Shown here piece after piece: positions 3,855 to 33,018 of a stretch of DNA of 33,018 nt (its first letter is position 1; each line of letters opens with the position of its first letter). Below the pieces are notes generated by a model. It did no database searches, was not told the DNA's origin, and worked only from the letters and a program-made list of their open reading frames with translations. The DNA is from a virus. A program made the translations under genes and the position numbers. The stretch covers positions 1-33,018 of the IMG/VR virus record IMGVR_UViG_3300022690_001616. One strand, given 5' to 3'.

Positions 3855-3856
3855 AA

Positions 3857-4288: not shown

Positions 4289-4293
4289 TTTAA

Positions 4294-4536: not shown

Positions 4537-4538
4537 AA

Positions 4539-16112: not shown

Positions 16113-16709
16113 TTAGGATACAATATACACATATCCCTTTTCAGTTAATTCCAATTTTATTGTAGTTGTTGACAACGCAATATTAGGGGGTGTTGTTAAT
16201 TCAACGTCTTCACTGGCTCTCACTAAAAAATTTAGTCGCCCCATCATAACGTGTTCTTTCTCGGTTCTATCTGGTTCAGCAATCGTTAACTCTTGAACTT
16301 CGGTGTGTCCTATATTTCCTCTTACAAATGCCAAAGTATCATATCCAGGGTTTTCCAGTATGGCACGAACCATACCTAAAATGCGTTGTAGTTTTATCGA
16401 TGAAAGATTGTCGCCATCGTCTGAGTCTGTGGATTTTGCTGACACATAACCATCGATATTATACAAATAACTTCCATCGACTTGTATTGCATTTTTATTA
16501 TCAAAGGGGCCACGTGCAAGATTCACACTCAAAAAATTAAGTTCAGTTATGTTAAAAGATTTATATCGCTCAATGCCGACTGTTGGGTTTAGGCTCGCAT
16601 CGCCATGTTTGGCAAGCTGATTAGACAGTTCATCCGCTAAAATTAACCCAATCCTGTCTCGAATAAGCTCAAAGTTCTGTTGCGGAATTAGATTATCAAT
16701 TATCGCCAT
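16113..16709 (-). CDS. Tail-terminator or tail-completion-like protein
   Basis: 198 aa. The N-terminal helix NFELIRDRIGLILADELSNQLA, then a strand-rich middle with an INELNFLSVNL-type segment, an acidic loop, and a C-terminal beta region (IALSTTTIKLELTEKGYVYIV) recall gp37/terminator-type proteins that cap the tail tube. I cannot confirm it from signature residues. It follows the second structural protein by TAATG and ends the structural block. Moderate call from position and layout. Confidence 0.4.
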   Translation of the reverse strand: MAIIDNLIPQQNFELIRDRIGLILADELSNQLAKHGDASLNPTVGIERYKSFNITELNFLSVNLARGPFDNKNAIQVDGSYLYNIDGYVSAKSTDSDDGDNLSSIKLQRILGMVRAILENPGYDTLAFVRGNIGHTEVQELTIAEPDRTEKEHVMMGRLNFLVRASEDVELTTPPNIALSTTTIKLELTEKGYVYIVS

Positions 16710-17665
16710 TAGTCTATTTCATAGCCGTGAACTACTCCGCTAATTTCTAAACTTGAATTACAGCTTATTTGTAATTTTTTATCTGCAACAGTTGAAACAA
16801 AAACACTATTGCTGATATTTAAGGCATAGTCCCTGTCTTTTTTGAGCTTCCCTTTAAACAAGGGTTGATTACTGGTTTCTTCGAATATTAAGATGGTGTC
16901 TGATTCGCTCCCTCCGTTTTCTGCTGCCGTAAAATGATAGCTGGTTATGACAAATCTTTTACCCGCTGACGGTGTAAAGATTGTCGATGTTCCGATTGAG
17001 GCCTTTACAAAATCTTGATGGAATATTGGGAAGCCGATTAGATGAGGTGGTGGCGATATATTACTAGACCCTCCCGCAATTAATGATCCTTCTGAAATGG
17101 CTATTTCACGTGTAACATTACCAATCACAGAACCATTACTATTACCAGTAATATCGGTTTCGATTCTTATCGTATTGTAACAAGTAATCGAGCCTATAAA
17201 ATCACCTTCTTCAGAACAAACATCTGAACACTTCCCTGTTCCTTTAGCAAATAAAACCATTGGATGAAAGTTCACACCATCATAACTGCCTAAGAATTTA
17301 ACTTGTCCTGCGGTTGGAGGAACTAAATGAAATCCGATTGTGTTGTAACCACCAGTGTCAAAGTCAAATACAGACCCCGATTGCAGCCCCACTACGCCTG
17401 GTCCACCTTCTGTGCCAAAAAACAGAGATGTTGCTCCTGGGTCTTTAATTAAATCATATATTTTACCAACTAATTCTGCAGATGAATTTGATTGGGGTAT
17501 AATATCCTGGAAGTTTTCATAGAACAACTTTCCATTGTTTGATCTTAGACCAACAAAATCGCCTGAGAAAAAAGCTTCTGTATCATTTTTGGCAACAACA
17601 AACTGATCGCCATTAGCAATGGTTACAAGTAATGTGGTTTTTCCGTTGTTCTCAATCTTAATCAT
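16709..17665 (-). CDS. Virion structural protein, paralogous N-terminal domain
   Basis: 318 aa. The first 70 or so residues parallel those of the gene at 18056-19090 (shared pattern TTL-VT-NGD, FS-D-VG, FY-x-x-F-x-x-I-P-x-S). The rest is beta-rich, with a lectin-like middle (TGGYNTIGFHLVPP) and a C-terminal SGVVHGYEID strand. It contains Gly-rich loops and four Cys. It is likely a head or neck surface protein; the two paralogues flank a gpFII-like joining gene. Function beyond that is unknown. Confidence 0.5.
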   Translation of the reverse strand: MIKIENNGKTTLLVTIANGDQFVVAKNDTEAFFSGDFVGLRSNNGKLFYENFQDIIPQSNSSAELVGKIYDLIKDPGATSLFFGTEGGPGVVGLQSGSVFDFDTGGYNTIGFHLVPPTAGQVKFLGSYDGVNFHPMVLFAKGTGKCSDVCSEEGDFIGSITCYNTIRIETDITGNSNGSVIGNVTREIAISEGSLIAGGSSNISPPPHLIGFPIFHQDFVKASIGTSTIFTPSAGKRFVITSYHFTAAENGGSESDTILIFEETSNQPLFKGKLKKDRDYALNISNSVFVSTVADKKLQISCNSSLEISGVVHGYEID

Positions 17666-17675
17666 AAGCTAAAAT

Positions 17676-18056
17676 TTATGCCTGAAAATCTCCTAATAAA
17701 CATACTATTAAACCTGTTGTTTCATTTGGATAAGTGTCTTCAATCTTATATGTTATGTTCAAGCCTGTGCTATCGGCAACCGTTACTTTGTGATCCTTCA
17801 AATCAACTTCTCCGGCCGCGTTTCTTATAGGGTAATCTCCAATACCTGTCGCATTTTCATGAAACGATATATGAGCGTTTTTGGCATTAACAGGATTTCC
17901 ATCAGTGTCAATTTGAAGATGAGTCTTTGAATGCAACCCGTTTATTACTGCTGTTTCCCCATAATCAGGTGCTAATAATGTCATTGGAACACCAAAGTCA
18001 TTAGCATTTTCGACAATGTTTTTAATGTCAATTCTTGATTGGGCTATTAATCCCAT
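17676..18056 (-). CDS. Head-tail joining protein, gpFII-like
   Basis: 126 aa. It opens with a helix (IAQSRIDIKNIVENANDFG) and continues FGVPMTLLAPDYGETAVING, SKTHLQIDTDGNPVNAK and AHISFHENATGIG. This follows the layout of lambda gpFII-like proteins, with a variable insert between a P-x-TLL strand and an H-I-x-F strand. Such proteins sit at the head-tail interface. The start overlaps the upstream TAA. The call rests on layout and place after the capsid genes. Confidence 0.55.
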   Translation of the reverse strand: MGLIAQSRIDIKNIVENANDFGVPMTLLAPDYGETAVINGLHSKTHLQIDTDGNPVNAKNAHISFHENATGIGDYPIRNAAGEVDLKDHKVTVADSTGLNITYKIEDTYPNETTGLIVCLLGDFQA

Positions 18057-19090
18057 TATGATGGATTAGTTACTGAAATTAGAGAACCAAACGCAGCTGT
18101 CTGAGCATTCCCGCCTCCGCTAACCCTTTTTACATCTATCCAAAAATCTGTTTTTTCAGATAATTGGCGCGGAGCATCATCGGTTAATCCAAACACCCCG
18201 CTAAAATCCACTATTTTTCTCGCCATTATTTTTGGGGTAAATGGTGCAGCAACAACATCAGCACTTCCCCTTTGTAGCATAAGCATTTCAGCGGTATTTG
18301 AATCAGATGCTTCTAAAAATAATTGAGTGATAAATGAAGTTTGGCCCAATGGAACAGTGAATACGAATTGATTTGACCTGCTTTCGCCTGTTTTTATAAT
18401 GCTTAAAACAGTATTCGTGTCAGCATTTTCAATAATTATATCACCAGCATTTCCTGCCCCATAGGTCCCAGTAGTTTTAACTAGCACAAAATTAACCCTG
18501 ATAAACGATGCGCTAGTTGATGAGCTGGCACTTGCTCCTGCTAATGTTATGTCTTCGGATATTGAACTAAAATTTGCATCAAGGCCAAAAACGGTTAAGG
18601 TTCTTGCGTTTGCACCTGCTGCTGCGTCTGCAGCATTCCCCCCTGACTTAACTCTAAGTTTTTCTGCTGCTTCTGGAAATACGTATATTCCACCACCTTC
18701 CCATAAGGTAGCAAATGAAGCCCCTACGACTGTATTTGCACCATTTAAATTTACACTTGCTTCATCTCCAATGAACCCTCTGGCCCGATCCATTCTATTG
18801 GCAGAGACATTTCTAACTACTTGAACCTCGCTGTCTTTGTTTAATACTTGGTCTGTTGTGGCGAACAATCCAATAAAAGCAGTTATTGCATTTACCAAGG
18901 CTTGCGCCGATATTGATACAGGTGAAATATTATTGAAATCATCATAAAATAGCACCTTGTTATTAACGATTATTCCAACCTGGTCAGCCGAAAAAATAAT
19001 GTCACTAACACCTTTGGGAATAATATGATTGTCGCCATTGTCAAGTGTAACCTTTAAGGTTGTAATTGTATTGTCTTCAACGGTTATCAT
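18056..19090 (-). CDS. Virion structural protein, paralogous N-terminal domain
   Basis: 344 aa. The N-terminal 70 residues are paralogous to those of the protein at 16709-17665. The remaining part is Ala/Ser/Gly-rich, with TYGAGNAGDIIIENADTN, then FTVPLGQTSFITQLF and a closing segment LSEKTDFWIDVKRV. The latter resembles structural proteins of marine phages with a TxPxG-TxFIT strand. No membrane segment or signal. Likely a head or neck decoration-type component; a role in adsorption is possible but not shown. Confidence 0.5.
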   Translation of the reverse strand: MITVEDNTITTLKVTLDNGDNHIIPKGVSDIIFSADQVGIIVNNKVLFYDDFNNISPVSISAQALVNAITAFIGLFATTDQVLNKDSEVQVVRNVSANRMDRARGFIGDEASVNLNGANTVVGASFATLWEGGGIYVFPEAAEKLRVKSGGNAADAAAGANARTLTVFGLDANFSSISEDITLAGASASSSTSASFIRVNFVLVKTTGTYGAGNAGDIIIENADTNTVLSIIKTGESRSNQFVFTVPLGQTSFITQLFLEASDSNTAEMLMLQRGSADVVAAPFTPKIMARKIVDFSGVFGLTDDAPRQLSEKTDFWIDVKRVSGGGNAQTAAFGSLISVTNPS

Positions 19091-19097
19091 GTCCTAT

Positions 19098-19132
19098 AAA
19101 AAGGGAGGGCGCACCATTGCTGATAACGCCCT
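19098..19132 (-). terminator. Terminator-like hairpin between capsid and structural genes
   Basis: On the minus strand AGGGCG (19132-19127) pairs with CGCCCT (19111-19106), extended by a T-G pair. The sequence then continues CCC and TTTTT (19102-19098). The loop is about 15 bases, longer than usual, and the stem is short, so it is likely a partial terminator or attenuator. It lies in the 63-base gap after the HeH-domain gene and would lower expression of the following structural genes relative to the capsid. Confidence 0.55.
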
Positions 19133-19153
19133 TGATTGCACAACTTGAAAAGA

Positions 19154-19501
19154 TTATTCCTGAACTGAGTATAGCGCATATAGTTCCTTTTTCTGCGCTT
19201 TTTCTTTATAAAATATCCCTTTATTGTCCAACTCTATTTTTATTTCGTTGGCGCTGATATCACCATATTCCTTGATGGTGTTTACTGGACTAGGATCGGG
19301 CGTGGGTTCTGGTGTTTCGACTTGTTTAACTGGTGCAACCGGCGCAACTGGTTTGTCTTCTTTTGGTCTTAAAAAACCATCCTTGACTAGCTGTGGAACA
19401 CTACCTGGAATAAAACTGGCTTCTGTTACCGTCTCACCGCTACGATAAATGTTGTTACCACTACCGCCAACTGAAGTTGTAATTACAACGTATTCTGCCA
19501 T
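19154..19501 (-). CDS. HeH/LEM-domain phage protein, 115 aa
   Basis: Begins with a short beta region (YVVITTSVGGSGNNIYRSGETV), has a Pro/Thr/Val-rich linker (residues 48-75), and closes with ISANEIKIELDNKGIFYKEK followed by ELYALY (residues 81-112). The last part is an HeH (helix-extended loop-helix) fold, a small relative of SAP/LEM domains seen in phage proteins near capsid genes. It lies directly after the capsid gene. The position suggests head completion, comparable in place to lambda gpFI. Confidence 0.65.
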   Translation of the reverse strand: MAEYVVITTSVGGSGNNIYRSGETVTEASFIPGSVPQLVKDGFLRPKEDKPVAPVAPVKQVETPEPTPDPSPVNTIKEYGDISANEIKIELDNKGIFYKEKAQKKELYALYSVQE

Positions 19502-19511
19502 AGTTTATTTT

Positions 19512-20561
19512 TTATGCAACCACTTGTAAAGTATATATCATGTCTACCCCAACAGGGATAGCTACTGGTGCGCTGCTAATTCTGTAATCGTGAGTTTTGT
19601 TCCAGCTGTCACGCTTATCATCAAAGAAATATCTTCCAGTGTTTATTACTGGATTGTCAGTATCTATTAATTGAGGGACAGCCGCGTATGCAAGACTAAA
19701 TCTTGGTTGTTGTGGTAAGAAAACAACATTCTTATCATTCATATAAGGTGTAGAAACACCTGAAAGATCAAAAAACTCTGGATAAGAAAAAATGTTAAAA
19801 ATATATGAGCCTGCTGAAACAGAACCGTGTAAAGCTGCACCCACTGAATTTTCCTGTGGCTCACGTATAACCATCCTGTCAAGTCTACGTGCATTGTTTT
19901 CAGCAAGGAAAACATCATTGGCCCAAAAGTCACGAAGGGCTGTTTCTCCAAATATTAGGTTAATGGTTCTTCCCCGAATCTTACCTTTTTGACGTAAAAA
20001 TGTCGCGCCATCTTCAAGGTCATTAAATACATTTACTCCCACCGTGGCCCAATAATTACCAGCCCCCTTGTCAACTAAAGAGTCTGCTTTACGTTTGAAA
20101 TCAATGTTAATTCCTTTGGTTAGCGTAACGATACCTGTCTCGAGAACTTGGGCACATTGTCTTTCAATGCTGCGATCAATTTTGTCTTGTAACATTCCAA
20201 GATGCTCGGCAACACCTTCAATAAAATTGGCAACAGCTGAAGCATCAATGGCCGTTGAGCCAAACATCCTGTCGTATAGATCCAATGAAGTTGCGTCGAA
20301 ATATTCACTATACAATGGCGGCTCAAATATCTTTTCAGTGGAAAGGCTGAATTGATTACGATTACCTTCTGTTCCGCGTTCAACATCAACAGCAATTTTC
20401 TCAGTGCCGCGTTGAACTTCAATCGAAATCTGTTTGGTAGCGCTTATTTTATCTACGAAAAATGAACGAAGAAATCCCAAAGGCGAAATACGCTCTTTGT
20501 AAACATCTACCAACATGCTGGTAAATAATGCTCTTGCTTGACTTGCTGGAATCGTTGCCAT
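19512..20561 (-). CDS. Major capsid protein E family
   Basis: 349 aa, close to lambda gpE in length. It carries the family layout: FLRSFFVDKISATKQISIEV, IAVDVERGTEGNR, PPLYSEYFDA, then a long helix with DKIDRSIERQCAQVLETGI, the sequence FKRKADSLVDKG, a W-rich segment and a final S-x-K/T-beta end. This is the HK97-fold shell protein. It lies after the decoration protein and before the HeH protein, the usual lambda-like order. Confidence 0.9.
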   Translation of the reverse strand: MATIPASQARALFTSMLVDVYKERISPLGFLRSFFVDKISATKQISIEVQRGTEKIAVDVERGTEGNRNQFSLSTEKIFEPPLYSEYFDATSLDLYDRMFGSTAIDASAVANFIEGVAEHLGMLQDKIDRSIERQCAQVLETGIVTLTKGINIDFKRKADSLVDKGAGNYWATVGVNVFNDLEDGATFLRQKGKIRGRTINLIFGETALRDFWANDVFLAENNARRLDRMVIREPQENSVGAALHGSVSAGSYIFNIFSYPEFFDLSGVSTPYMNDKNVVFLPQQPRFSLAYAAVPQLIDTDNPVINTGRYFFDDKRDSWNKTHDYRISSAPVAIPVGVDMIYTLQVVA

Positions 20562-20584
20562 TGTCTTACTTTTTTATTTTAATC

Positions 20585-21028
20585 TTATCGATTGTCTGTT
20601 GCTGTTAATTCGTCACCGCCAACAAGTATTACGCCTACGGTATCTGCCCCAATTCTGTCTCCTAAAGTCTTAGATTCAATCACGGTGGTAATTGAGTCTA
20701 AGCCGTTGAAAATAAGTTTTGATTCTACCACATCACCAGCAATACAAACTGACAAACTAACCGTTTCACCTGCTGATACTACACGTGTTTGTTTTAATAT
20801 CCCTACAGGAAATTGGCTTCCATTTGAGGCATTTGATACCAAAACAACCATTAGATTGGTTCCCGCAATACGGCCCATTATAGTTCCGGCTGTCAGGGTA
20901 ACATCACCATAACCACTATTGTTGAACGAAATGTCTTTATAGCGGTTATCCCTAACAAATATCTTTGATACATCAGTATCAATTATCGCTTGTTGCCCGG
21001 TGTTTGAGACTGTTGTTTGAATGCTCAT
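20585..21028 (-). CDS. Head decoration protein
   Basis: 147 aa. Follows the pattern of the HDPD family: NNSGYGDVTLTAGTIMGRI, then VVLVSNASNGSQFPVGIL, then SLSVCIAGDVVESKL and GDRIGADTVGVILVGGDEL. The protein stabilises the expanded capsid from outside. It lies between protease and capsid genes, as in lambda (D before E). The start is ATG 21028, one base after the protease stop. Confidence 0.85.
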   Translation of the reverse strand: MSIQTTVSNTGQQAIIDTDVSKIFVRDNRYKDISFNNSGYGDVTLTAGTIMGRIAGTNLMVVLVSNASNGSQFPVGILKQTRVVSAGETVSLSVCIAGDVVESKLIFNGLDSITTVIESKTLGDRIGADTVGVILVGGDELTATDNR

Positions 21029-21029
21029 A

Positions 21030-21386
21030 CTAGCTTAATGTTACGTTTAAATGTCCTTTCACTAACTCCTTTGAAGCTTCCAGGTCTTTTTCTTCTCCGT
21101 CTTTTGTGCTCTCATCTGGTGGATCCGTAGAAACGTCTTTGGTTTGTGCTTTTAGCTTTTTGAGGTATTCGGGACTATTTGCTTTTAGCACCAATTCGGA
21201 CTGTTCTGTTTGTGTCAGAACTTGATCCTCTTTGATCGCCTTTAAAATACGGTCTTTGTCAACATCAATAAATGCCAACAGTGATCCTATCCGGTCTTTT
21301 TCGGTTGACGCACCTAGCTTTTTGCCTTCTTCGATTATTTCTGCGTAAAGGCCAGGATTTTCTGCTTTTAATTTTTCGATGCTCAT
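21030..21386 (-). other. Possible internally started scaffold (in frame)
   Basis: ATG at 21386 begins MSIEKLKAENPGLYAEIIEE, exactly where the protease-scaffold linker ends. The product would be 118 aa, helical and acidic, fitting the size and style of a lambda Nu3-type scaffold. No Shine-Dalgarno sequence precedes it, which is neutral here because most starts in this genome lack one. This is inferred from the family, not shown by the sequence. Confidence 0.4.
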
Positions 21387-22088
21387 GGTGGTAAAATTAG
21401 AAGTTGGAATATTGTTGTTTGGTTTTGGTGGATTAACTGGATCTTGATTTTCTTCTGGCTCATCTATAAACTTTGCGGCTAATTTAATTGCATCGTTTTC
21501 AATAGATGTATTAATTTGTGCAGCGATCTGTGGTGTTATTTTAACGATTTTATTGACAAGCTTAATTTGCTTTGCTTGTTGAGCAGAAAGACTAACCTCT
21601 ATTCTGTCGTCGTTAGAAAACAACTCATCCAAAGTAACGCCGGTGATCTTTTCAAATTTTGGAATATCGAGTTTCGCTTCCATTGCTTTGCGCAAATTCT
21701 TGTTAACCCTATCACGACTTTGGGCCATTGCTTCGGTCATGAGATCAGAGTTTTCAACAAAAGACGGAAACGCTGCGCGATGAAAAAGAAATTCAGCTAC
21801 ATCGTTGGATTCTACAAAATCAGCATACAGAGGTAAAAATGCGGCCATAGAAAATGCTTTGCCATCAATCTTTACTATCTTTTTACCTGGATGTTCTTTG
21901 AATTTGGTAATGGTCGCAAATCCATCCTCAGGGCCGCCGCCATTACTATTTATTCTAGCAGTTAGATCTTCGTTTTTGGCCTCATCCATCTGGCGCACCC
22001 ATTCGGTTGCGCTGAACCAATCCATGGGGCCATATACAAGAATCTCTGCCATTTGTGACAAAAATATATTTGATAACTTTTTTTTCAT
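21030..22088 (-). CDS. ClpP-like prohead protease fused to scaffold
   Basis: 352 aa. The N-terminal ClpP/S49-like domain has INSNGGG (47-52), KAFSMAAFLP with candidate catalytic S80, and FLFHRAAFP with H103. A Pro/Asn-rich linker at 211-232 leads to a C-terminal helical, charged region starting MSIEKLKAENPGLYAEI, the scaffold. An internal ATG at 21386 (residue 235) opens this scaffold, so a free scaffold could also be made as lambda Nu3 is. The start 22088 reads MKKKLSNIFLSQMAE; M13 (22052) is an alternative. Confidence 0.85.
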   Translation of the reverse strand: MKKKLSNIFLSQMAEILVYGPMDWFSATEWVRQMDEAKNEDLTARINSNGGGPEDGFATITKFKEHPGKKIVKIDGKAFSMAAFLPLYADFVESNDVAEFLFHRAAFPSFVENSDLMTEAMAQSRDRVNKNLRKAMEAKLDIPKFEKITGVTLDELFSNDDRIEVSLSAQQAKQIKLVNKIVKITPQIAAQINTSIENDAIKLAAKFIDEPEENQDPVNPPKPNNNIPTSNFTTMSIEKLKAENPGLYAEIIEEGKKLGASTEKDRIGSLLAFIDVDKDRILKAIKEDQVLTQTEQSELVLKANSPEYLKKLKAQTKDVSTDPPDESTKDGEEKDLEASKELVKGHLNVTLS

Positions 22089-22090
22089 AA

Positions 22091-22140
22091 TTGTTTACCC
22101 TATTGGGGTAATTTATATTTTTGAGAAAACCAACAATAGG
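22091..22140 (+). promoter_or_regulatory. Promoter and operator-like palindrome for the plus-strand RHH gene
   Basis: TATTTTTG at 22116-22123 matches the TAnnTTTG element, with TTG at 22091-22093 upstream as a weak -33 element (spacer 22 bases). Between them lies a palindrome, TTACCC TATTG GGGTAA (22095-22111). CCTATTG (22099-22105) is also repeated inverted as CAATAGG (22134-22140), touching the start codon. The arrangement suits a repressor that controls its own promoter and perhaps the divergent head operon. The minus-strand promoter is not evident. Confidence 0.5.
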
Positions 22141-22322
22141 TGAGTAATAAAAGAAAGGACAGGACTAAAATCGTATTGATGCTGCCAATGGAACGAAGAA
22201 TGCAAGCAAAAAACGCCGCCAAACACAAAGGCATTAGTATGAATAGTCTGCTTTCTCCTGTAATTTGTGAATATTTAGACGCCCTTCCCGAGCGCTATAG
22301 GAAAGAATACGACCCTACTTAG
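22140..22322 (+). CDS. Ribbon-helix-helix-like regulator, only complete plus-strand gene
   Basis: 60 aa from a GTG at 22140. After a basic arm (MSNKRKDRTK) it reads KIVLMLPMERRMQAKNAAKHKG then ISMNSLLSPVICEYL: a short strand, a helix rich in Arg/Lys/Ala and a second helix starting with Ser-Met-Asn. This is the CopG/Arc layout. It lies divergent to the protease gene, with an operator-like palindrome in between, and its TAG overlaps the TAA of the portal gene end-to-end by four bases. Likely a DNA-binding repressor. Confidence 0.65.
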   Translation: MSNKRKDRTKIVLMLPMERRMQAKNAAKHKGISMNSLLSPVICEYLDALPERYRKEYDPT

Positions 22323-23977
22323 GAGTCATCGTCGCCTGGTGGTTCTGGTGGAGGCTCAGTTTTTACCTCACTAACAATATCCAGGTCCTTAGATTTTTCT
22401 AACTCTTTAGCATACTGTTCCATGTTGCTATCAGAATCACCGCCATTTAAAGCCCCAGTTGCGTTTTCAATAGTTGTCAATGGAATAGAATCAGCTGTAT
22501 TTCCTAGTTTTAATCGTTCTGCCTCGACCTCCTTTTTGGGATCAATATGTGGAACGGACGCACCTTCAAAAGTTGCATTTCTGTAGCTTTCTAACACCAT
22601 TATATTGTTAGTTTCAAACGCTTGCAAATAGCCTGGTGCTTGAACTTTGTTCTTTAATATCTGAACATGCAACCAAAAGTCGTAAATAGGTTGATAAAAT
22701 TGAAATTGGAAATTTGCCCGATCCACATTTAATGTATGTTCCCAATCTTTTAAAGCTGCACGACTAGCTGAAAAATTGCTATCATATTTTGACATTGCTA
22801 CTTCCGGTGGTATACCTAGTGTTGCTGCCGTCATATCAATGTGTGCGCCAAAATAATCTTTAAAATATAATTCCTGTTGGTTGGCTGCTACTCGTTCAAT
22901 CTTTGAACCAATTGGCATGTTAAGCGCCTGTTTGTTAGTTGTAGCCGCTATGGTATTAGCAAGTTCTTTGCCTTCCTCGGATCTTGGTAAATCTGTTGAA
23001 ACAGCATCAGCGTCAAATGCTTTGACTATATTTTTTTGAAGCACATTTTCGCCTGTGGAAAATATTTGGTGAACTATTTGATAGGCTATTTTTGCGTTTT
23101 CTTCAGCACTGCCTAACACAGCCTCCTTATAGCGCTCCATCTTTTTAATGGATTCCATTACAGCAGTAATCCAAGGTAGGCCGCGAACACTATCTAAACG
23201 ATATTCCAAGCCATAAACCATAAAAGCCACAATTAGCCCATCTTTTGTTTTGGCTTCAACACGTTCGGTTGCTAATAACCTGCCGCCTTTCCTGACGTAA
23301 TACGCAACGTGCTCCCCTTTTTTATCAATCTCTATTCCGTGTAAGATTCTATTACCCTTTTCATCTGCACGAACAATTTGGTCTCTATCAAATGGCGATT
23401 GAACATGCCCCCCATCAACCAATTGAACAGTCATTTCATCTTCAAGTCTCAATATTACCAACACATCACCGCCAACTAAAGATTCGAAAAACGCTTTCTT
23501 TGCTATTAGATTTAGGTTTCTGAGTTTGGAGTAATCAATGTGCCTTGATTTTGCCAGAATCCCAAACCTTGATTCAGTGGTTACGTTGAAGTTTTCCGGT
23601 TCTAATGCTATTCCTTCAGATTCTAAAACTTTAATTTGTGGCTGTGATTGTAGTTTTAATCCTGATCCAATTGTCCATTTAGCGAACTTTTTAACAACTG
23701 TCTGAGATATATCACTTTCCAGAAAACTTTGCCATGAACGTAGTCTAAGCGCAGCATGGTCAACACGATAATCTTTAATCGGTCCTATTTCACCAAGGTT
23801 TTTTTCTCCATCAAAACCAAGGACCATAAATTGCTTATAGCTACTTGAATGTGCCTGTAATTTTGGTTGGGTTTGCCCGTTTAAATTATCGCCATTTTTA
23901 GAAAACACAGGCAGATTTTTTGCCCATGAAAACAATCTATTAACCGGCCCTGGTTTTTTATGTAAAGCTTTTTGCAT
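22319..23977 (-). CDS. Portal protein, lambda gpB-like
   Basis: 552 aa, in the usual range of lambda-type portals. The N-terminal region has VDHAALRLRSWQSFLESD, then a core with ALEPENFNVTTESRFG, AFFESLVGGDVLVILRLEDE, and the sequence GIEIDKKGEHVAYYVRK. The C-terminal half includes GAHIDMTAATLGIPPEVAMSKY and SASRAALKDWEH, the portal stem and crown pattern. The portal forms the dodecameric vertex through which DNA is packaged. The gene overlaps the gpW-like gene by 20 bases. The acidic Pro-rich end is probably disordered. Confidence 0.9.
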   Translation of the reverse strand: MQKALHKKPGPVNRLFSWAKNLPVFSKNGDNLNGQTQPKLQAHSSSYKQFMVLGFDGEKNLGEIGPIKDYRVDHAALRLRSWQSFLESDISQTVVKKFAKWTIGSGLKLQSQPQIKVLESEGIALEPENFNVTTESRFGILAKSRHIDYSKLRNLNLIAKKAFFESLVGGDVLVILRLEDEMTVQLVDGGHVQSPFDRDQIVRADEKGNRILHGIEIDKKGEHVAYYVRKGGRLLATERVEAKTKDGLIVAFMVYGLEYRLDSVRGLPWITAVMESIKKMERYKEAVLGSAEENAKIAYQIVHQIFSTGENVLQKNIVKAFDADAVSTDLPRSEEGKELANTIAATTNKQALNMPIGSKIERVAANQQELYFKDYFGAHIDMTAATLGIPPEVAMSKYDSNFSASRAALKDWEHTLNVDRANFQFQFYQPIYDFWLHVQILKNKVQAPGYLQAFETNNIMVLESYRNATFEGASVPHIDPKKEVEAERLKLGNTADSIPLTTIENATGALNGGDSDSNMEQYAKELEKSKDLDIVSEVKTEPPPEPPGDDDS

Positions 23978-24269
23978 CGACTAATCTAATATAACGCCCG
24001 TTGATACTAGGATGATTGATATATCTTTGCCTTATGGTCTCAAAATCTTGAATGCTTTTGGCTATCTGGGTTACATTCCGGTAAGTGGTTTTGATTTTTA
24101 CCTGACCATCATCTAAACTATATTCATCAATATTTCCAGTTGATGCAGCGGTTAAGGCTGTAGTTTCAAGCGCTGAAATAATCGCTTCAATAGCCGTGAT
24201 TTTAGCTAGTATCGTTGTTCGGCTTTGTATATATATAAGTTCTGATTCGTATGTAATTGACCCGCTCAT
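23958..24269 (-). CDS. gpW-like head-tail connector
   Basis: 103 aa. It has a long N-terminal helix, an acidic stretch with YSLDDGQVKIKTTYRN, a helix VTQIAKSIQDFETIRQRY and a C-terminal IRLVDAKSF. This is the small helix-strand-helix layout of lambda gpW, found between terminase and portal; here it precedes the portal directly. The start overlaps the spike gene stop as ATGA. The family match is weaker than the position, so the call is moderate. Confidence 0.5.
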   Translation of the reverse strand: MSGSITYESELIYIQSRTTILAKITAIEAIISALETTALTAASTGNIDEYSLDDGQVKIKTTYRNVTQIAKSIQDFETIRQRYINHPSINGRYIRLVDAKSFT

Positions 24270-24793
24270 ATCGTTTTTATTTCATCAATCTTTGAATCAT
24301 CAATTGTAGCTGCTGCAGGCACACCAGGCGTTATTGACACTAACGTGCTTGCTCCACCAGCAGTAACACCAGGATGAACATGCGCGTTAAAGATAGTTAC
24401 AAAAGCGTTCAATTCTGTTTTTAACAGGTCAAACCCCGTCTTTAGTTTGTTGAACCTTACCATAAAATCAGCGTTGCCACCTATTTCACAAGTCCCATCG
24501 TTTTTTTGGTAAATAAAAAATTTCACCGCTCCCGTTGAATCTGTTGAAAATGTCCTATGTTCACCAACAGCAGCAAGGGCGTTTTTGTTCAAATAACCAA
24601 TAACTACATTTTTCCCTTTTTCGTCCGTAGTTCCATAGACCGCAACCATATCTTTGATCGGGTGTGAATCTGTTCCATATGGACCCGCTTGTATTACGTC
24701 CTGAACATCACTTTTCCCAAACCGCAAAAACTTTACCTTTCGCTCTTTGGCTGCTGTGATTATTGTTGATATGACTTTGATAAAATTAAGCAT
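24266..24793 (-). CDS. Baseplate spike protein, Mu gp45/P2 gpV-like
   Basis: 175 aa. The N-terminal OB-like region has QAGPYGTDSHPIKDMVAVYG. The middle reads VIGYLNKNALAAVGEHRTFS, then TCEIGGNADFMVRFNKLKTG. The end NAHVHPGVTAGGAST places an HxH at residues 138-140, the type of apical motif that binds an iron ion at the tip of the P2 and Mu spikes. The spike pierces the outer membrane. It overlaps the hub gene by 8 bases. The overall layout is a good match. Confidence 0.8.
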   Translation of the reverse strand: MLNFIKVISTIITAAKERKVKFLRFGKSDVQDVIQAGPYGTDSHPIKDMVAVYGTTDEKGKNVVIGYLNKNALAAVGEHRTFSTDSTGAVKFFIYQKNDGTCEIGGNADFMVRFNKLKTGFDLLKTELNAFVTIFNAHVHPGVTAGGASTLVSITPGVPAAATIDDSKIDEIKTI

Positions 24794-25838
24794 GGATATT
24801 TATGCCTTCAAACAAATATTCCGGAGTCGAATCGTCATACACAGAAGGTATTACACACGTTAATGTCGATACCAATTGTTTGCTATCACCTGTTAAATTT
24901 ACGCTTTCAATAAACCACCTGGATTTTTCAAACAGGAATACTTTAGGATTCGTTACGGTAATAATGTTATTTGGTTTGATTATGGTATCGCCAATTTCCC
25001 ATTGATCGGTTTTAATAACCAGTTTCATGTTTTTTAGTTCCGCTGATAGCGCACTTTTTGCAGCTTTTAATGAATCATTATCATCGCCTGAGCTCTGGGT
25101 AATTACTTTGGGTCTGAAAACAAATGGAACAAATGGATTTATTACTGTGGCCTCACCTGCGTTTCCACCGCCGCTGTCAGCCTGTTTCATGGCCGTTATT
25201 TGTGAGTGCATTGCCTGACCATTAAACGTTAGGTTCATTTCTGTAAAATTCGGCTGGCCCGTTTCATAATGAACAATTGCCGTTTGTTTGGTTTTGGCCT
25301 TTGTGTAAACCAACCGACCCAAATTATCATGAGTTAATATGATGTCCTTTTGAACAGCCAGCTCGGTCAAATAATCTTTAATACTTTGCTTTTCGCTTGC
25401 TGTTGTAACATCAAAAACCTGATTAACATTAACCCCATCAACCACCAATTTCAAATCAAAAGGAGCTATAAGTTTTTCCGTAATTTCCCTTAAAGTCAGC
25501 CCGTCAAACTGTAATGGATATAGTGAAGTGGGAATATTGCAGTCCTCTAGAACACCTGGTAAAGAATACCCCCCCAACGAGGCCAATTGTTCTTCCTTGC
25601 TGTCTTTAAATCCTTGGCTTAATACCTGGCCACTTATTAATACTTCTCCATTGTGTTCTAATCGAGCTAAATGATAATGGCCTATCGCAGCTAATTCTAT
25701 GTGGTCTTGGTTTTCAGGATTGAAAAAAAAACTCAACCCGAATTTCGATGCAACAGAATCATATTGCAAAGTCATATCGAAATTGCTAAACAGATCAATT
25801 TTTCTGTCTCGAAACCTATCGTTTATAAAAAGTTCCAT
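24786..25838 (-). CDS. Baseplate hub protein, Mu gpP-like
   Basis: 350 aa. It has the usual hub layout: an N-terminal beta domain (FDMTLQYDSVASKFGLSFFF), EHNGEVLISGQV, and LGGYSLPGVLEDCNIPTSLY. Then comes a central domain with LREITEKLIAPFDLKLVV and the helix SIKDYLTELAVQKDIILTHD, and a C-terminal beta region ending before a DDSTPEYLFEG tail. This hub links the spike to the tail tube. The start overlaps the upstream TAA as TAATG. Confidence 0.85.
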   Translation of the reverse strand: MELFINDRFRDRKIDLFSNFDMTLQYDSVASKFGLSFFFNPENQDHIELAAIGHYHLARLEHNGEVLISGQVLSQGFKDSKEEQLASLGGYSLPGVLEDCNIPTSLYPLQFDGLTLREITEKLIAPFDLKLVVDGVNVNQVFDVTTASEKQSIKDYLTELAVQKDIILTHDNLGRLVYTKAKTKQTAIVHYETGQPNFTEMNLTFNGQAMHSQITAMKQADSGGGNAGEATVINPFVPFVFRPKVITQSSGDDNDSLKAAKSALSAELKNMKLVIKTDQWEIGDTIIKPNNIITVTNPKVFLFEKSRWFIESVNLTGDSKQLVSTLTCVIPSVYDDSTPEYLFEGINIHA

Positions 25839-27064
25839 TAGATATAATAACGAATGGTTCGGTCTTTTTTAACCAATAACAGTTCGCTCAATCCTATGTC
25901 GTTGTTTTGAATAAAGGTGTCTATGTTTTCATCCAAAACATCCAGCCCGTAAAACCTGTGAGTTAAATTAACGACATTGCTATCGTCTTCGAGAATTACA
26001 ATTCGTTCCTGGCTGGCATTCAAAGCAATGTCATATAATCTTGATACTGCAAATTTGACAAGATCATCCAGGGCTAATATTGAATCTGCATCAGGTATAT
26101 AGCTTGTTGGGCTACCACCGTTATCTGTTTGAAGGCTGTCTAAATCTTTTATTAATTTATTATAATTATCTATCAGAATTTCAATCGTTAAAAACACATC
26201 GTCTCGGTTATTATAATCAAACTCATCTGGTGTTGCTGCCGACCTTGACATTCCACTTAATATGGCTGCACCATTATTCTCATAAATCTTTTTTTCAGAT
26301 TGATCGATTATATTATCAAAGGTTAACAGAAGTCTATTAAACTGTCCAACCATCATATTAACTCTATTCTTTGCACTATCAATAAACAGCGCGGGTGCAT
26401 TTATCACGGCTTGCATTGCGTTTATGGCCGCTAATGGCTCACTGCTTGCATTCAAAATTGCTGAACTTGCTGTTGTAAATAGATTAAAATATTTTTCTGC
26501 ATCATTACTGTCGATGATTTCAGTATTTACGGCGGCGTGATAATTGTCTAAATTCGATGTCATCAATTGAACATCTGAGGAACTTGGGTCAACATCATTT
26601 ACAAAAGATGCTGCAAGTATCTCGTTTAATTCCTCTGAATCATTCTCTATTTTATCACGTGGGTCTTCACTAGTTTGGGGTGCTAAATCAGTAATGGTTT
26701 CAACAATAGTTCCTGTTATTTTGGTGACATTTTGTTGGGTATTATCAAAAGATAACGATATTGGTTGAACTATAATAAGGCCGTAAAACGGATGATCCAA
26801 CGTCCATGCACGACTATCGTTCGATGATTCATCAAATGCTGCAGCAACATCTAAATGATCGTCACCTTGAAAATAAATCTCTAAACTATAGCGCCTGCCG
26901 CGTGGCGCGCTTTTTCTTACTAACGTCCCTGGTATGTTGGGAAAATCAAATTCGGCAATGTTAAATTCTTTGTTTTTGGTAGCATTGATCCACTGTGGGG
27001 TATAGGTCTCACCGTCACCTGTTGTAATTATTAAATCAGATTGTATGTCTTCTAACCAACTCAT
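25838..27064 (-). CDS. DNA-circularization protein, Mu gpN-like
   Basis: 408 aa. The N-terminal 130 residues hold the conserved start of the family: a W near the start, EFDFPNIPGTLVRKSAPRGR, YSLEIYFQGDDH and the DHPFYGLIIVQPISLSF pattern, then a polar linker with TSEDPRDKIENDSEELNEIL. The C-terminal half is helical. The Mu gpN family is a tail/baseplate component, historically called circularization protein. It precedes the hub directly as in Mu, where the tape measure would come before it. Confidence 0.75.
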   Translation of the reverse strand: MSWLEDIQSDLIITTGDGETYTPQWINATKNKEFNIAEFDFPNIPGTLVRKSAPRGRRYSLEIYFQGDDHLDVAAAFDESSNDSRAWTLDHPFYGLIIVQPISLSFDNTQQNVTKITGTIVETITDLAPQTSEDPRDKIENDSEELNEILAASFVNDVDPSSSDVQLMTSNLDNYHAAVNTEIIDSNDAEKYFNLFTTASSAILNASSEPLAAINAMQAVINAPALFIDSAKNRVNMMVGQFNRLLLTFDNIIDQSEKKIYENNGAAILSGMSRSAATPDEFDYNNRDDVFLTIEILIDNYNKLIKDLDSLQTDNGGSPTSYIPDADSILALDDLVKFAVSRLYDIALNASQERIVILEDDSNVVNLTHRFYGLDVLDENIDTFIQNNDIGLSELLLVKKDRTIRYYI

Positions 27065-27831
27065 TTGGCAGCTGCCTTGGCAAATCGTCTTTTTGCTTCT
27101 TCAACAAAAAACTTCTCTATTTTTCCACCTGTTAACAATGCCGCCTGTTTTCTGAAAGGGCGTGCTTTCACTTTTACAACGTTGCCCCGAATAATGCTAT
27201 ATAATGGAGTGCTATTAATTTTAACTCCCTTCGGCCCTGTTTTGCGTATATCATTAATTCTATATAACACTCTGCGCGTACCGGAACCTCCTAAAACATA
27301 AGCCTCATTCCCAAAAGCTTCTTTTGCAATTATTGCAGCCCTTACATATTTCTGTTTTTTGCTTCTGCCAGCAACTCTTGAGGCGTTAATAATTTTATTA
27401 AATGGAATTTTAGAAATTCTGTTTTCATCACGAACACGACCCGTTCTTTTCTTGCCAACTCGCGCAGTGTCCAAGGGCAAAAACGGTCTGTCCGGGGTTA
27501 AGGTTCCACCTATTTCCTGATCTTCTAAATCCTGAACAGAATAATTGTTTTGACCTTTTAACAGAGTTTCAACAAATCCAACTGTGGATTTCATGACTTT
27601 TACATCAAAGCCCTTTGCACCCTCGAACCTTGAATTAGCTTTATAGAATTGGCCTCTATGGCGTTTCTCAAATGTGCTTTCGGCGCTTTTTGGCAAGGTC
27701 TCTTTTTTCATGTTCACAGCCGCCTTGGTTAATGTGCCACGTATGGCAATAGGCAAATCAGAACGATGCATTTTTTCCAGCTTATTCGTAAATTTTACAA
27801 GCCCCTTGGTATTTATATTAAGCTGTGTCAT
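27061..27831 (-). CDS. Tail-completion protein, gpZ/HK97-gp10-like
   Basis: 256 aa, basic. It opens with a short strand and helix (GLVKFTNKLEKMHRSDLP), a helix AIRGTLTKAAVNMKKETLPK, an FEKRHRGQFYKANSRFEG basic stretch and a C-terminal VKARPFRKQAALLTGGKIEKFF followed by a helix to the end. This is the layout of minor tail protein Z and of HK97 gp10-like proteins. They act at the tail terminus. The position before gpN rather than in the head-tail interface is unusual. Confidence 0.55.
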   Translation of the reverse strand: MTQLNINTKGLVKFTNKLEKMHRSDLPIAIRGTLTKAAVNMKKETLPKSAESTFEKRHRGQFYKANSRFEGAKGFDVKVMKSTVGFVETLLKGQNNYSVQDLEDQEIGGTLTPDRPFLPLDTARVGKKRTGRVRDENRISKIPFNKIINASRVAGRSKKQKYVRAAIIAKEAFGNEAYVLGGSGTRRVLYRINDIRKTGPKGVKINSTPLYSIIRGNVVKVKARPFRKQAALLTGGKIEKFFVEEAKRRFAKAAAK

Positions 27832-28757
27832 GCACCGGGAACTTGGAATGAAAATGGTGTAGTTAAAAGCAATGCATCTGTTAGCGTATCTGTAGACGGC
27901 ACACGTGTTCTTACTTCTAATTCTGTGTCACTCAATCTTTTGGCACTACAATTTGCCGCAATTGTTCCGCCGGTTGCTGAAATCTGAAAATATGTCTCGG
28001 CAACATGAAACAACGCGGACGAAGAGGTTACTTTATAAATTCCAACACCTGTGCGTGTCCATGTAAGACCAATGTTGAAGTCAACCGTGTTTTCTATTAC
28101 ACTAACGGTTGGGGCAGCGGTTCCTGTCTGGGTAAGAAGCGCTTTATATTTACCATGAAAAATTGGCGAAGGCGCGGATATTAGCACACATCCACCCCCA
28201 AGAGATGAATAAACGAATGTAGCCCCTGAATTTGGTTTTATAACAAGCCTTCCATTAAATATTCCGGCATTATCACCAACACGAAAACGAGTAAATCCAG
28301 CCGGTGGTGCTGAAGCATCCCTTTCAATAACTAACTCAAAAGACACATCACGATTTAAAAGATGAATAAGCGTTCCGTCTTCACGCGTAGTTATATAATT
28401 AACAATAGATACATCTGAATCATCAATAAGATAAGTATTGTCCGCTGTTGCTAATGGAAGGGCAATTCTGCCAGGGGTTCCCAACACATCAATTGCTGGT
28501 GGTTGCCCTCTAAATGTTTTTATCAGGCTTTCATAATATTGAAATCCATCATAATCGTTGTCTGGTAAATCATTTGGCACTATTCCAGAAAGGGCGAACA
28601 TACGCGCAAAATATTGGAAGTAATCCGCATGTGTAACCATGTCCAATAAAGTGCCTTGGATTATAGGTGGTCCTGCGTCAATGTCTCTTATATTACCATA
28701 CAGATATTGTCCATCTGGTGCATCAACATTTTGCTTGTCTTTTAATTCTATAGCCAT
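27828..28757 (-). CDS. Tail-fibre-like protein, 309 aa
   Basis: The N-terminal 80 residues read as a fibre attachment region: NIRDIDAGPPIIQGTLLDMVTHADYFQYF, FALSGIVPNDLPDNDYDGFQYY. The rest is beta-rich, with repeats of Gly/Ser/Thr and a C-terminal LTDALLLTTPFSFQVPGA. This is the typical start of phage receptor-binding fibres. No chaperone or DGR sequence follows. It lies directly after the HNH-AP2 gene and before the tail-completion-like gene, so it is probably a short fibre or adaptor. Confidence 0.5.
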   Translation of the reverse strand: MAIELKDKQNVDAPDGQYLYGNIRDIDAGPPIIQGTLLDMVTHADYFQYFARMFALSGIVPNDLPDNDYDGFQYYESLIKTFRGQPPAIDVLGTPGRIALPLATADNTYLIDDSDVSIVNYITTREDGTLIHLLNRDVSFELVIERDASAPPAGFTRFRVGDNAGIFNGRLVIKPNSGATFVYSSLGGGCVLISAPSPIFHGKYKALLTQTGTAAPTVSVIENTVDFNIGLTWTRTGVGIYKVTSSSALFHVAETYFQISATGGTIAANCSAKRLSDTELEVRTRVPSTDTLTDALLLTTPFSFQVPGA

Positions 28758-28759
28758 GG

Positions 28760-29686
28760 CTAAACAGTTTGGTTTTCTTGTGTTGATTTAATCGCATTCA
28801 TAGCTTCAATTTCTTGATTAAAATATCCAAAAAAAGTTCTCTTGCCGTTTATCGTTAATCTTGAAACCCATTTTTTATGGGTCATACACCATGAAACGCC
28901 TTGATATTTAGATGAATTATTTCGAACAATTCGGTCTTCTTGGTGTTCTACCGATATATTATTTAACACAGCTTTATCTCCAAATTGTTTTAATGCTTCA
29001 AAATTGTATGCATGGGCCGCATCTGTTTCATTAATATAAGTCCCCAAATAAATGAGCTTAGAATTAACTATTATTGATGCCTGCCAATGTCCTGTTTGTT
29101 TAAGCTTGGCAACACCCATATATTTAGACGATGCATTTGGAGGCCTTAAGAATCTTGTTTTTTGTGGTCTTGGTAATTTAAAATCGACCTCATTAATTCT
29201 AGCAAATTCACCATGATGTTTTTTAGCCCCTATATTGTATGCTGCAACTGCCTCTAATTCCGTTTTATATACGCCTAAAGAGATTGCTTTTCTGTTAACC
29301 GTTATAATGGCTGTCCATTGCCCATTTTTGCCCCTTTGCCGAACTCCCTTATATTTGCTTGCTTTACCACCAGACGATTTTCTGTTCATTATATTTTGTT
29401 GGGCTGTGCAAATTCTCAAATTATCGCGGCAATTATTTAATGAATCCCCGTCCTTGTGATCTACAATAATTTTAGGATTGTCAACACCCATTATTTGCCT
29501 GTGCATTGAAATAAATTTCTGGTTATAATACTTTTCACCCTCATGTATTATATACTTTCTTTTTGCACGCTTGGCATATAAATAGCCTTCCTTACCTATT
29601 GCTGACCATTTCCATTGACTTAAATCTTCATAGTCTTCATCATCAACCTTGGTAAATACGCCACGTGTTAATTTTATTTTTTTCAT
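28760..29686 (-). CDS. HNH endonuclease with three AP2 domains
   Basis: 308 aa from ATG 29686; a TTG at 29692 also fits. It has an HNH region (SMHRQIMG, IVDHKDGDSLNNCRDNLR; D76-H77 and N89 as core residues, no flanking Cys knuckles), then three AP2-like DNA-binding domains beginning KYKGVRQRGK (111), KYMGVAKLKQ (189) and KYQGVSWCMT (260), each followed by a W and a Y/F-G-x-Y/F strand. This is the layout of free-standing HNH-AP2 homing endonucleases. It sits between DUF2313-like and fibre genes and is the only gene of its kind here. Confidence 0.85.
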   Translation of the reverse strand: MKKIKLTRGVFTKVDDEDYEDLSQWKWSAIGKEGYLYAKRAKRKYIIHEGEKYYNQKFISMHRQIMGVDNPKIIVDHKDGDSLNNCRDNLRICTAQQNIMNRKSSGGKASKYKGVRQRGKNGQWTAIITVNRKAISLGVYKTELEAVAAYNIGAKKHHGEFARINEVDFKLPRPQKTRFLRPPNASSKYMGVAKLKQTGHWQASIIVNSKLIYLGTYINETDAAHAYNFEALKQFGDKAVLNNISVEHQEDRIVRNNSSKYQGVSWCMTHKKWVSRLTINGKRTFFGYFNQEIEAMNAIKSTQENQTV

Positions 29687-29688
29687 AT

Positions 29689-30414
29689 TCAAATATACTG
29701 CACGAAGAGGAAAGCTATTGATTGGGCAGGCTTAATCCTCAAAACGGTTTGTCTAAATTCTTGTTCTCTGTCTGCATCAACACTTGCAAAGGTTCCAACA
29801 GGTGTTCCCCCAATGAAAAACGTGCTTCTCAAATCAGCGCCCGTATCAAAAAAGGCATCTTTAGCTGCATCAATATTATTTGCAATTACAAATTCATAAA
29901 CACTTCCTATCTCTTGTTGTCCTCCATATTGTGATTGACCATATTGAAGTGCGCCTGAATATTGTGCTGCCTCCCCTACAAGACCAAGGATTTCATTTGG
30001 CGATCTGGTTTTAAAAGTATCTGGATATAAATCAAATCTGTTTTCAAATACAAATACATTAAATCCTGCCGCTTTTAGTTGACCCTCTAAATATAAAAAA
30101 TGTTGCCTTGCTGGAATATCTCCAGGGTGTTTCATTTTTCTTTCAATGGCTAGTTTTCTATCCGCTAGTGACACGGCGGTCTTTGTTATTAACCCTAATC
30201 GCCTTTCCCAATCGGTAGCATCATCTGCCGTAAATCCTGTATTATCCGGCAACATGCTATCTTGAATTGAAACAGCATCATCATAAGCCCGTTGTTCGCT
30301 CTTGGCTAAACCGCGATGTAACTTTTCAATTATCGAACCAAAAAATATTTTAAATACCCTTCCAGTTGGATATAATTGTTTTGTAAGAGCTACTATTTTA
30401 TCAAAAATACTCAC
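29689..30414 (-). CDS. DUF2313/gp48-like tail protein
   Basis: 241 aa from a GTG at 30414, overlapping the baseplate J stop as GTGA. It carries the DUF2313 (YmfQ) pattern: LTKQLYPTGRVFKI, LPDNTGF, then DDATDWERRLGLI and SLADRKLAIERKMKHPG. The C-terminal region has a Gly-rich segment LVGEAAQYSGALQYGQSQYG. Mu gp48 is such a protein, at the baseplate periphery between gp47 and the fibres. The J-48 order is thus kept here. Confidence 0.8.
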   Translation of the reverse strand: MSIFDKIVALTKQLYPTGRVFKIFFGSIIEKLHRGLAKSEQRAYDDAVSIQDSMLPDNTGFTADDATDWERRLGLITKTAVSLADRKLAIERKMKHPGDIPARQHFLYLEGQLKAAGFNVFVFENRFDLYPDTFKTRSPNEILGLVGEAAQYSGALQYGQSQYGGQQEIGSVYEFVIANNIDAAKDAFFDTGADLRSTFFIGGTPVGTFASVDADREQEFRQTVLRIKPAQSIAFLFVQYI

Positions 30415-31589
30415 GTAAAGATTATTGTATCGACAAAAGGAATATCACCGTTCTCAAAAGTATGTGTTAAAACTGATATGCTGCTGACTTTTAATGTCAC
30501 TGTCCCAAATGAGCTACCTGGTTGGGCTTCTAATATCTCGGATATGATACCATTAATATCAAGAATATCATTTTTGTTTGCAAGCACATCGGACGATGAA
30601 ACAAACGGACGAATCTTATTAATGAACGCAGTTAGGCCATTTATAATTAGTGTTTCGATTGCCGGTGTTGATCCTACATACGCATCAATTTCAATGTCTA
30701 CATCTAAAGGCGTAATGGCTAGAAAATTAACTTGAAAAACAGCTAATGGTCTACGCCCTCGTTCGTTTAATGGCCTGGTTATATCTGGGTCAAACTCGAC
30801 AACGTCTTCAACAGCCGTTAAAATTGCTGCTGTTGGCGTTCCTTTCCCGTCGGAGCTATCAACGATAGTGGCTTCAACATAATGGTTTATTTCATTTGCC
30901 GCACCAGATTTGGCATAAGGAAAGGTTCTCAAAACACCTTGCGCGTCTAATGACCACAATCTGTAATCCGTCCCAGCGCCGCCTTGCGCTTCTAATTGGT
31001 AAGCATCAATGCCCTTTGTCCTATATACCTCAATTGTTTCACCAGCAAGTGGTTGGGTTGTTTCCGAATCTACTGTTACGATTTGGTTGACATTCGCAAT
31101 TGGTGAGGTTGCCGTTAATTGATCGGCTACTTGTAATTTGCTTTCTACACCTGGCTCTAAAGCCCTTAGTGTAATTTGATCTCCAACACCTAAAAGCGTA
31201 TAGTCAGCATCTAGCACGAATAATTTGCCTGGGCTTGCACTATCATCGTTGCTTTTAAAAGTAGTATTCGCATCAATTACCGCGCTTACTGTTCCTGTGA
31301 CATCTACCAAATATTCGCCGGCAGTTGCAGCGAAAGGATTTCTGCCTAGCTTAATTCTACCAAATCTTTCTAATGTTCCACCAATCGATTCTGGATCCGC
31401 CGTGTCTATAAATATGTTCTTCTGTAAAACACCAATTGCCAGATAAATGATCTTTAATTTCGCTGCCTGAACGCTTGCTAAAACTCGCAGGAAGTTTTTA
31501 CCAAAAAGCGGAATGCTTATATTAAATTCATTTTCAAGATCGGCAATAATTTGATCTTTTAACTCCTGTAATTTGGGAATAGTTATCAT
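30411..31589 (-). CDS. Baseplate J (gp47) family protein
   Basis: 392 aa. It follows the family layout: an N-terminal helix, then RVLASVQAAKLKIIYLAIGVL, a DTADPESIGGTLERFGRI segment, the beta stretch with AATAGEYLVDVTGT, then LVTDxxTxGxYxV-like strands, PxFTGxIL-like motifs and the closing S-x-P-G-SSFGTVTLKVSS. Baseplate J proteins form the wedge of contractile tails (P2, Mu). The start overlaps the upstream TGA as ATGA. No gpW/gp25 partner is seen next to it. Confidence 0.8.
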   Translation of the reverse strand: MITIPKLQELKDQIIADLENEFNISIPLFGKNFLRVLASVQAAKLKIIYLAIGVLQKNIFIDTADPESIGGTLERFGRIKLGRNPFAATAGEYLVDVTGTVSAVIDANTTFKSNDDSASPGKLFVLDADYTLLGVGDQITLRALEPGVESKLQVADQLTATSPIANVNQIVTVDSETTQPLAGETIEVYRTKGIDAYQLEAQGGAGTDYRLWSLDAQGVLRTFPYAKSGAANEINHYVEATIVDSSDGKGTPTAAILTAVEDVVEFDPDITRPLNERGRRPLAVFQVNFLAITPLDVDIEIDAYVGSTPAIETLIINGLTAFINKIRPFVSSSDVLANKNDILDINGIISEILEAQPGSSFGTVTLKVSSISVLTHTFENGDIPFVDTIIFT

Positions 31590-31831
31590 GATTGTGGTGG
31601 TGGTTTAAGCCATTCGGGTGTTAGTTTTAGTGCTCTCCATTCCGCATGTGTCAATGGTGTCAATGACTGCATTACAGCCGGAATTTTTCTATTGGCAGAT
31701 GGTAACTTAACCAATGCATGGGTTTCTGCTACGTTGGTAGTGCAAACAGAAATATTCCGTTGAATTATGTGCTCTCGATACCTACGAAATGCACCCGCTG
31801 GTATTACAAAATATTTATTTCTTATTGCCAT
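31586..31831 (-). CDS. Hypothetical protein, 81 aa
   Basis: Short basic protein, start ATG 31831 overlapping the upstream stop as TAATG, end overlapping the J gene as ATGA. It has an N-terminal aromatic segment (NKYFVIPAGAFRRYREH) and a C-terminal Pro-rich tail (LTPEWLKPPPQS). In Mu-like phages the gene before J encodes the gp46/W protein, but this one is shorter and does not show that pattern. Function unknown. Confidence 0.55.
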   Translation of the reverse strand: MAIRNKYFVIPAGAFRRYREHIIQRNISVCTTNVAETHALVKLPSANRKIPAVMQSLTPLTHAEWRALKLTPEWLKPPPQS

Positions 31832-32907
31832 TATGGTGGTATTTCTGTTGTTTTGTCGGCTAACTCCATATTAATGCTTGTTCCGTCATTTGTATTTACT
31901 GATTCATCGGGAAGGGTAAATTCAGAAACAAAATCACTACGTTCACCCATGCGAAACCAGCCTTGCAAATTAGCAGCGCTTGCAAAAGGGGTTAATTTAA
32001 TTGGCACACCTGAATTATATATTTCTGTTATCTCGGTCGGGGTGAGAGCATCGTCATAAACTGCAACCTCTGTTAGGTGTCCATCAAACGTAGAGGTATT
32101 CCCACCACCGGTATGGTTTTGCGCTCCAATACGCCCGTTATCAAGGTCTGACGCGACACTAAACCACGCTGTTTTGTCTATAGCAAGAGTGAATGTTGCG
32201 GCAACGTCAACACCGTTAATATAAAGATTTGGCTCTGTGCCATTATGAACCAGTGCTATGTGAATCCATGTATTTGCAACGGCGTGTGCAGCTGTAGTTA
32301 CTAATATCCATTTAACAGCACCTATCGCAAAACAAGCTGCTTCAATGTCGCCTCCTGGCTTAATATAATAGTCAATTACACTAATTCCACCAGCTGTTTT
32401 TCCAAAACCTAATAATGTTAATGTGCTACCAAGTGCGGCAGGTCTAGCCCAAACCGACCAGGTTCCCGTTGTGGTTCCTGCCAATTCATTGGTTCTAAGA
32501 GCATCTATTTCTATCGCTTCGTCTGATCCATCAAATAATAGAGAATTTTCCAGTATCCAAGAATCAATATAATCTTCCTTCACCTCATCGTCGCTTCCAG
32601 CCGCATTTGTAGCGGTTAATTTTGCTTGATAAACCCCATCGTTATCAAACTGAACGTGCGGGTTTTGTGATGTTGAAGAGGTTCCATCTACAAAAGTCAC
32701 CGTTGATGGTGTAAACACCCATAGCCAACTAGTCGGGGTGTTGGTAGAAAGGTCTGTAAATTCAACTGTTTCGCCCTCGACTGGTGCAACATTATTTGCA
32801 ACAAAATCTGCAACGGGAATTAGCACTATAAGAGCTGCGTCAATATAATCCAGTTTTTCTTCAATGTCGCTGCCCGTTATATTCGTTGCTGTTAGTTTAA
32901 CATCATA
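31831..32907 (-). CDS. PKD and LamG-domain adhesin-like protein, 5' end cut at an inverted junction
   Basis: The C-terminal part holds one PKD domain (from PVADFVANN at 32814 to GVYQAKLTATN) and a concanavalin-like LamG domain (from SLLFDGSDEAIEIDAL to a WFRMGERSDF end). The frame continues 5' of a GTG at 32826 through a second PKD end (YDVKLTATNITGSD), which stops matching at about 32907. These domains are common in phage and bacterial carbohydrate-binding proteins, so this is probably a receptor-binding protein. No signal peptide or complete N-terminus is visible. Confidence 0.65.
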   Translation of the reverse strand, partial: YDVKLTATNITGSDIEEKLDYIDAALIVLIPVADFVANNVAPVEGETVEFTDLSTNTPTSWLWVFTPSTVTFVDGTSSTSQNPHVQFDNDGVYQAKLTATNAAGSDDEVKEDYIDSWILENSLLFDGSDEAIEIDALRTNELAGTTTGTWSVWARPAALGSTLTLLGFGKTAGGISVIDYYIKPGGDIEAACFAIGAVKWILVTTAAHAVANTWIHIALVHNGTEPNLYINGVDVAATFTLAIDKTAWFSVASDLDNGRIGAQNHTGGGNTSTFDGHLTEVAVYDDALTPTEITEIYNSGVPIKLTPFASAANLQGWFRMGERSDFVSEFTLPDESVNTNDGTSINMELADKTTEIPP

Positions 32908-33018
32908 CCACCAGGACCACCACCATTGCCTGTAGCAGATTTTGTGGCAGATAAATTAAATCCGGATATTGCTGAGACAGTGACGTTTACGGATTTAGTA
33001 ACTACAGCTGCACACGCC
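32896..33018 (+). CDS. Partial PKD domain on the plus strand
   Basis: From a stop at 32893-32895 the plus frame is open to the window edge. It reads a Pro-rich linker (IIPPGPPPL) and then PVADFVADKL, PDIAETVTFTDLVTT, which is a second version of the PKD start seen on the minus strand (PVADFVANN, ETVEFTDLS). The two versions differ in bases, so it is a paralogue rather than a copy. The N-terminus is not a normal start. This is a fragment in inverted orientation. Confidence 0.55.

Follow-up and report, generated by a model that had tools for sequence, protein, structure and literature searches.

The stretch of DNA analysed here (the window, 33018 bases) is the whole of the linear virus record IMGVR_UViG_3300022690_001616. 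Homologous structural genes mark its source as a contractile-tailed phage akin to Flavobacterium phage FCL-2 (Ficleduovirus): genes for portal, protease, capsid, hub, baseplate J and wedge proteins could be recognised, all on the minus strand. The baseplate J and wedge proteins show 41-60% identity to their counterparts in FCL-2 and in the related contig L004, and FCL-2 has homologous capsid and hub genes as well, although its gene order is unlike that of the window. On the coding strand of the region 16113-31831 (minus), baseplate and hub genes precede those for portal and capsid, which is not the case in FCL-2; the hub-to-portal order agrees with that in another related contig, L007. A homing-endonuclease-like gene with HNH endonuclease and AP2 domain matches (28760-29692, minus strand) lies between the baseplate and tail genes. 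Elsewhere, an open reading frame with a weak Rad52/22 match (10854-11531, minus strand) adjoins a PDDEXK-like DUF3799 gene, and these two neighbours are likely to form a phage recombination pair.

In L004 the genes immediately upstream of baseplate J encode sheath, tube, tape measure and a gp25-like wedge protein, and FCL-2 likewise has additional tail genes immediately upstream of baseplate J. Homologues of these four L004 proteins were sought in the window and none was found. Because these upstream tail genes are missing, the contig is taken to be broken inside the structural module, and the absent genes should lie beyond position 33018. The last gene before the break encodes PKD domains and a LamG domain (Pfam matches: PKD_4, 7e-8; PKD, 2.2e-7; Laminin_G_3, 7.1e-18), and from this domain content its product would be a structural protein of receptor-binding or fibre type. 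The features at this end of the contig are collected in Table 1.

Table 1. Features at the high-numbered end of the window
Feature	Position	Strand	Remarks
Baseplate genes (small ORF, baseplate J, wedge)	29689..31831	-	Intact, co-directional, downstream of the PKD-LamG gene
Truncated PKD-LamG gene, native part	31831..32907	-	C-terminal end of first PKD, complete second PKD, LamG/ConA-like domain
Native copy of the terminal 24 bases	32281..32304	-	In frame within the LamG domain of the PKD-LamG gene (LVTTAAHA)
Inverted piece: Pro-rich linker and first 22-23 PKD residues (PVADFVADKLNPDIAETVTFTDL)	32908..32994	+	Matches second PKD residues 1-23
Terminal 24 bases, second joint to contig end	32995..33018	+	Exact reverse complement of 32281-32304

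A preliminary description of this DNA had proposed that PKD-coding sequence changes strand close to the contig end, with a minus-strand PKD end (YDVKLTATN) that reaches to about 32907 before similarity is lost and a stop is met, and a plus-strand PKD start preceded by a Pro-rich linker. Six-frame translation bears out each of these observations and places the switch at 32907/32908. Downwards from 32907 the minus strand reads YDVKLTATNITGSDIEEKLDYIDAALIVL, continuing in frame into PVADFVANN... of the second PKD domain and then into LamG; upstream of 32907 the same frame ceases to make sense and runs into a stop at 32956-32958. From 32908 up to the contig end the plus strand reads PPGPPPLPVADFVADKLNPDIAETVTFTDLVTTAAHA, within which the PKD start is PPGPPPLPVADFVADKLNPDIAETVTFTDL.

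Both pieces were compared with the intact second PKD domain of the same gene. The plus-strand (N) piece has 15 identities in 23 residues and the minus-strand (C) piece 16 in 27, and none of 5000 shuffles of either piece attained its score. In the alignment the N piece occupies residues 1-23 of the second domain and the C piece residues 63-89, with no overlap, so that about 39 residues are missing between them. Since the two pieces match non-overlapping parts of the second PKD domain, they can be understood as halves of one domain, one of them inverted, and the earlier view that two paralogous PKD pieces meet here fits these boundaries less well. The simplest reading of the alignment is that both derive from the single, first PKD domain with the loss of about 39 residues, in which case the inverted piece would most likely supply the N-terminal half that this domain lacks.

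A further joint, unmentioned in the preliminary description, lies at about 32995, only 87 bases beyond the first. The sequence that follows it, TTAGTAACTACAGCTGCACACGCC, is an exact inverted copy of part of the LamG coding sequence (Table 1), for which the chance expectation is about 2e-10. The TTA at 32995-32997 encodes the Leu of FTDL, a residue conserved in both PKD copies, and is for that reason probably native to the PKD sequence; microhomology of at least 3 bases (TTA) at this second joint is therefore plausible. The final 111 bases thus hold two rearrangements, both drawn from one gene neighbourhood. Since the plus-strand reading jumps from mid-PKD to mid-LamG it yields no sensible protein, and neither strand codes for one across the joints. 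As the inverted pieces do not adjoin their counterparts, the idea of a hairpin telomere or terminal palindrome was rejected.

As a control, exact terminal matches of at least 16 bases were sought in a set of 50 contigs that included the window, 80 ends in all. Three contigs alone had inverted matches, namely L007 (144 bases), L029 (52 bases) and the window itself (24 bases), while at interior cut points a suffix match of at least 20 bases occurred once in 880. The terminal match of L008 is direct, not inverted: the last 121 bases of its low end directly repeat a stretch about 370 bases away, amid other short direct repeats.

When 14 structural proteins were mapped onto 58 related contigs, structural genes on mixed strands were found in four, L007, L026, L029 and L069. 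Three of these are among the four contigs of IMG sample 3300022707, compared with one of the 54 others (p=0.0005, a value that is descriptive only because this sample was picked out post hoc). Two of the three, L007 and L029, are also the contigs that, like the window, end in an exact inverted match, as noted above. In L029, portal pieces corresponding to residues 390-537 and 55-371 lie on the minus and plus strands, respectively, of the same contig; in L007 the C-terminus of the hub gene occurs twice, one copy inverted. The inverted tail of L007 is about 686 bases long, and the idea that each such tail is one read in length was dropped for that reason. In L069 a minus-strand piece of a protease gene (about 3800-4680) adjoins co-directional portal genes; it is probably another inverted contig end. 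Sample 3300022707, of which the papers searched made no mention, appears to be rich in inverted chimeras. Its three mixed-strand contigs come from related phages and have structural-module genes broken and rejoined in inverted orientation, as at the joint in the window; they differ in that their sample may not be that of the window, and in the greater length of the L007 tail.

Taken with the organisation of the two joints, these findings make it very likely that the last 111 bases of the window are an artificial chimera of amplification, library preparation or assembly. In chimeras formed during phi29 amplification (MDA), 85% of joins are inverted with an intervening deletion, and most connect nearby segments at short complementary stretches (Lasken and Stockwell 2007, PMC1855051). 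If the two PKD halves do come from one domain, the first joint has just this form, an inverted join of nearby segments that lie much less than 10 kb apart and have lost what stood between them, and to that extent it fits the MDA pattern (PMC1855051). The window differs in having a second jump within 111 bases, and at this second joint the only plausible microhomology is the TTA. In a likely course of events, strand displacement during amplification would free the 3' end of a strand being copied from the PKD-LamG gene; this end would re-anneal to a nearby displaced strand and be extended there, giving the inverted join with loss of about 120 intervening bases, and a further template jump would then land in the LamG region of that gene. 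Assembly would carry the contig on into this chimeric, poorly supported stretch and end there. An amplification step is thus a suggested cause, and other library or assembly routes offer an alternative path to the same outcome. The underlying sequence is probably one gene, read in a single direction, that encodes LamG and two or more PKD domains and lies between baseplate J and the tail genes missing upstream.

An intact counterpart of this gene was sought in several collections. An exact pattern from the inverted piece found no match among viral contigs, and a protein search of viral contigs did not find an intact PKD-LamG gene. A protein search of genome contigs likewise yielded no intact gene, its sole match being to PKD, at 44%, in an archaeal MAG, and among phages only distant LamG matches were obtained, in Synechococcus phage S-PM2. 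FCL-2 and L004 differ from the window in this respect too, as no PKD-LamG homologue was found among 15 related virus records in a search made without a positive control. All of these scans may omit the window's own record or very near ones.

The preliminary description had offered two interpretations, an amplification or assembly chimera, which is well supported by the present results, and an invertible receptor-binding segment, which is not. The G segment of Mu and the C segment of P1 are invertible tail-fibre segments, and the window resembles them in that two related PKD pieces of one gene of receptor-binding type stand in opposite orientation. A phase-variable segment of this kind, switched by a site-specific recombinase, would call for an enzyme and its crossover sites. 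Neither serine recombinases or resolvases (PF00239) nor tyrosine recombinases (PF00589) were found in the window, with positive controls matched in both searches; a Pfam scan of the window gave no match of recombinase or reverse-transcriptase type among the ORFs scanned. The search for a serine invertase, which took in 15 related records besides the window, found none, and tyrosine-recombinase matches came only from the records behind L011 and L012. Within the window there is no inverted repeat of recombination-site type at 32907/32908, though the other end of such a segment would fall past the contig end. The PKD domain is, moreover, cut with its middle missing, a second and different joint follows after 87 bases, and the whole lies exactly at the contig end; a switch would hardly account for a pair of rearrangements packed into the final 111 bases of a contig. 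An invertible segment is accordingly considered very improbable. A similarly slight probability is kept for in vivo shuffling, in which the phage would rearrange the PKD and LamG modules of its receptor-binding protein through inversion and deletion, because the missing part of the genome could encode a recombinase or reverse transcriptase. The reverse transcriptase that a diversity-generating retroelement would require, together with a template repeat, is absent from the window (PF00078).

Two further readings are less probable still. A true in vivo rearrangement in a minority of phage particles, through illegitimate recombination or in a defective genome, would be compatible with a joint made by replication template switching, which is also a source of inverted joins; against it stand the two joints within 111 bases at a contig end, and the concentration of like inverted joins among related contigs in one sample, which points to sample handling. 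Just as doubtful is a genuine divergent neighbour on the plus strand, whether a whole gene or a fragment, that carries a paralogous PKD domain. In its favour, a plus-strand frame stays open from 32896 up to the contig end and includes a PKD start. Against it, that frame leaves the PKD domain midway for 24 bases that match the LamG of the first gene exactly, the recognised structural genes are all on the minus strand, and the first gene would have to start in mid-domain after the stop.

The apparent strand switch is thus most likely an ordinary contig-end chimera rather than a DNA inversion switch. A real inversion would amount to a receptor-switching device of a new kind. Taken as an artefact, the joint is a caution that contig ends in virus collections can bear inverted tails, and inverted chimeras such as those in which sample 3300022707 seems to be rich would mislead studies of gene order and gene fusion.
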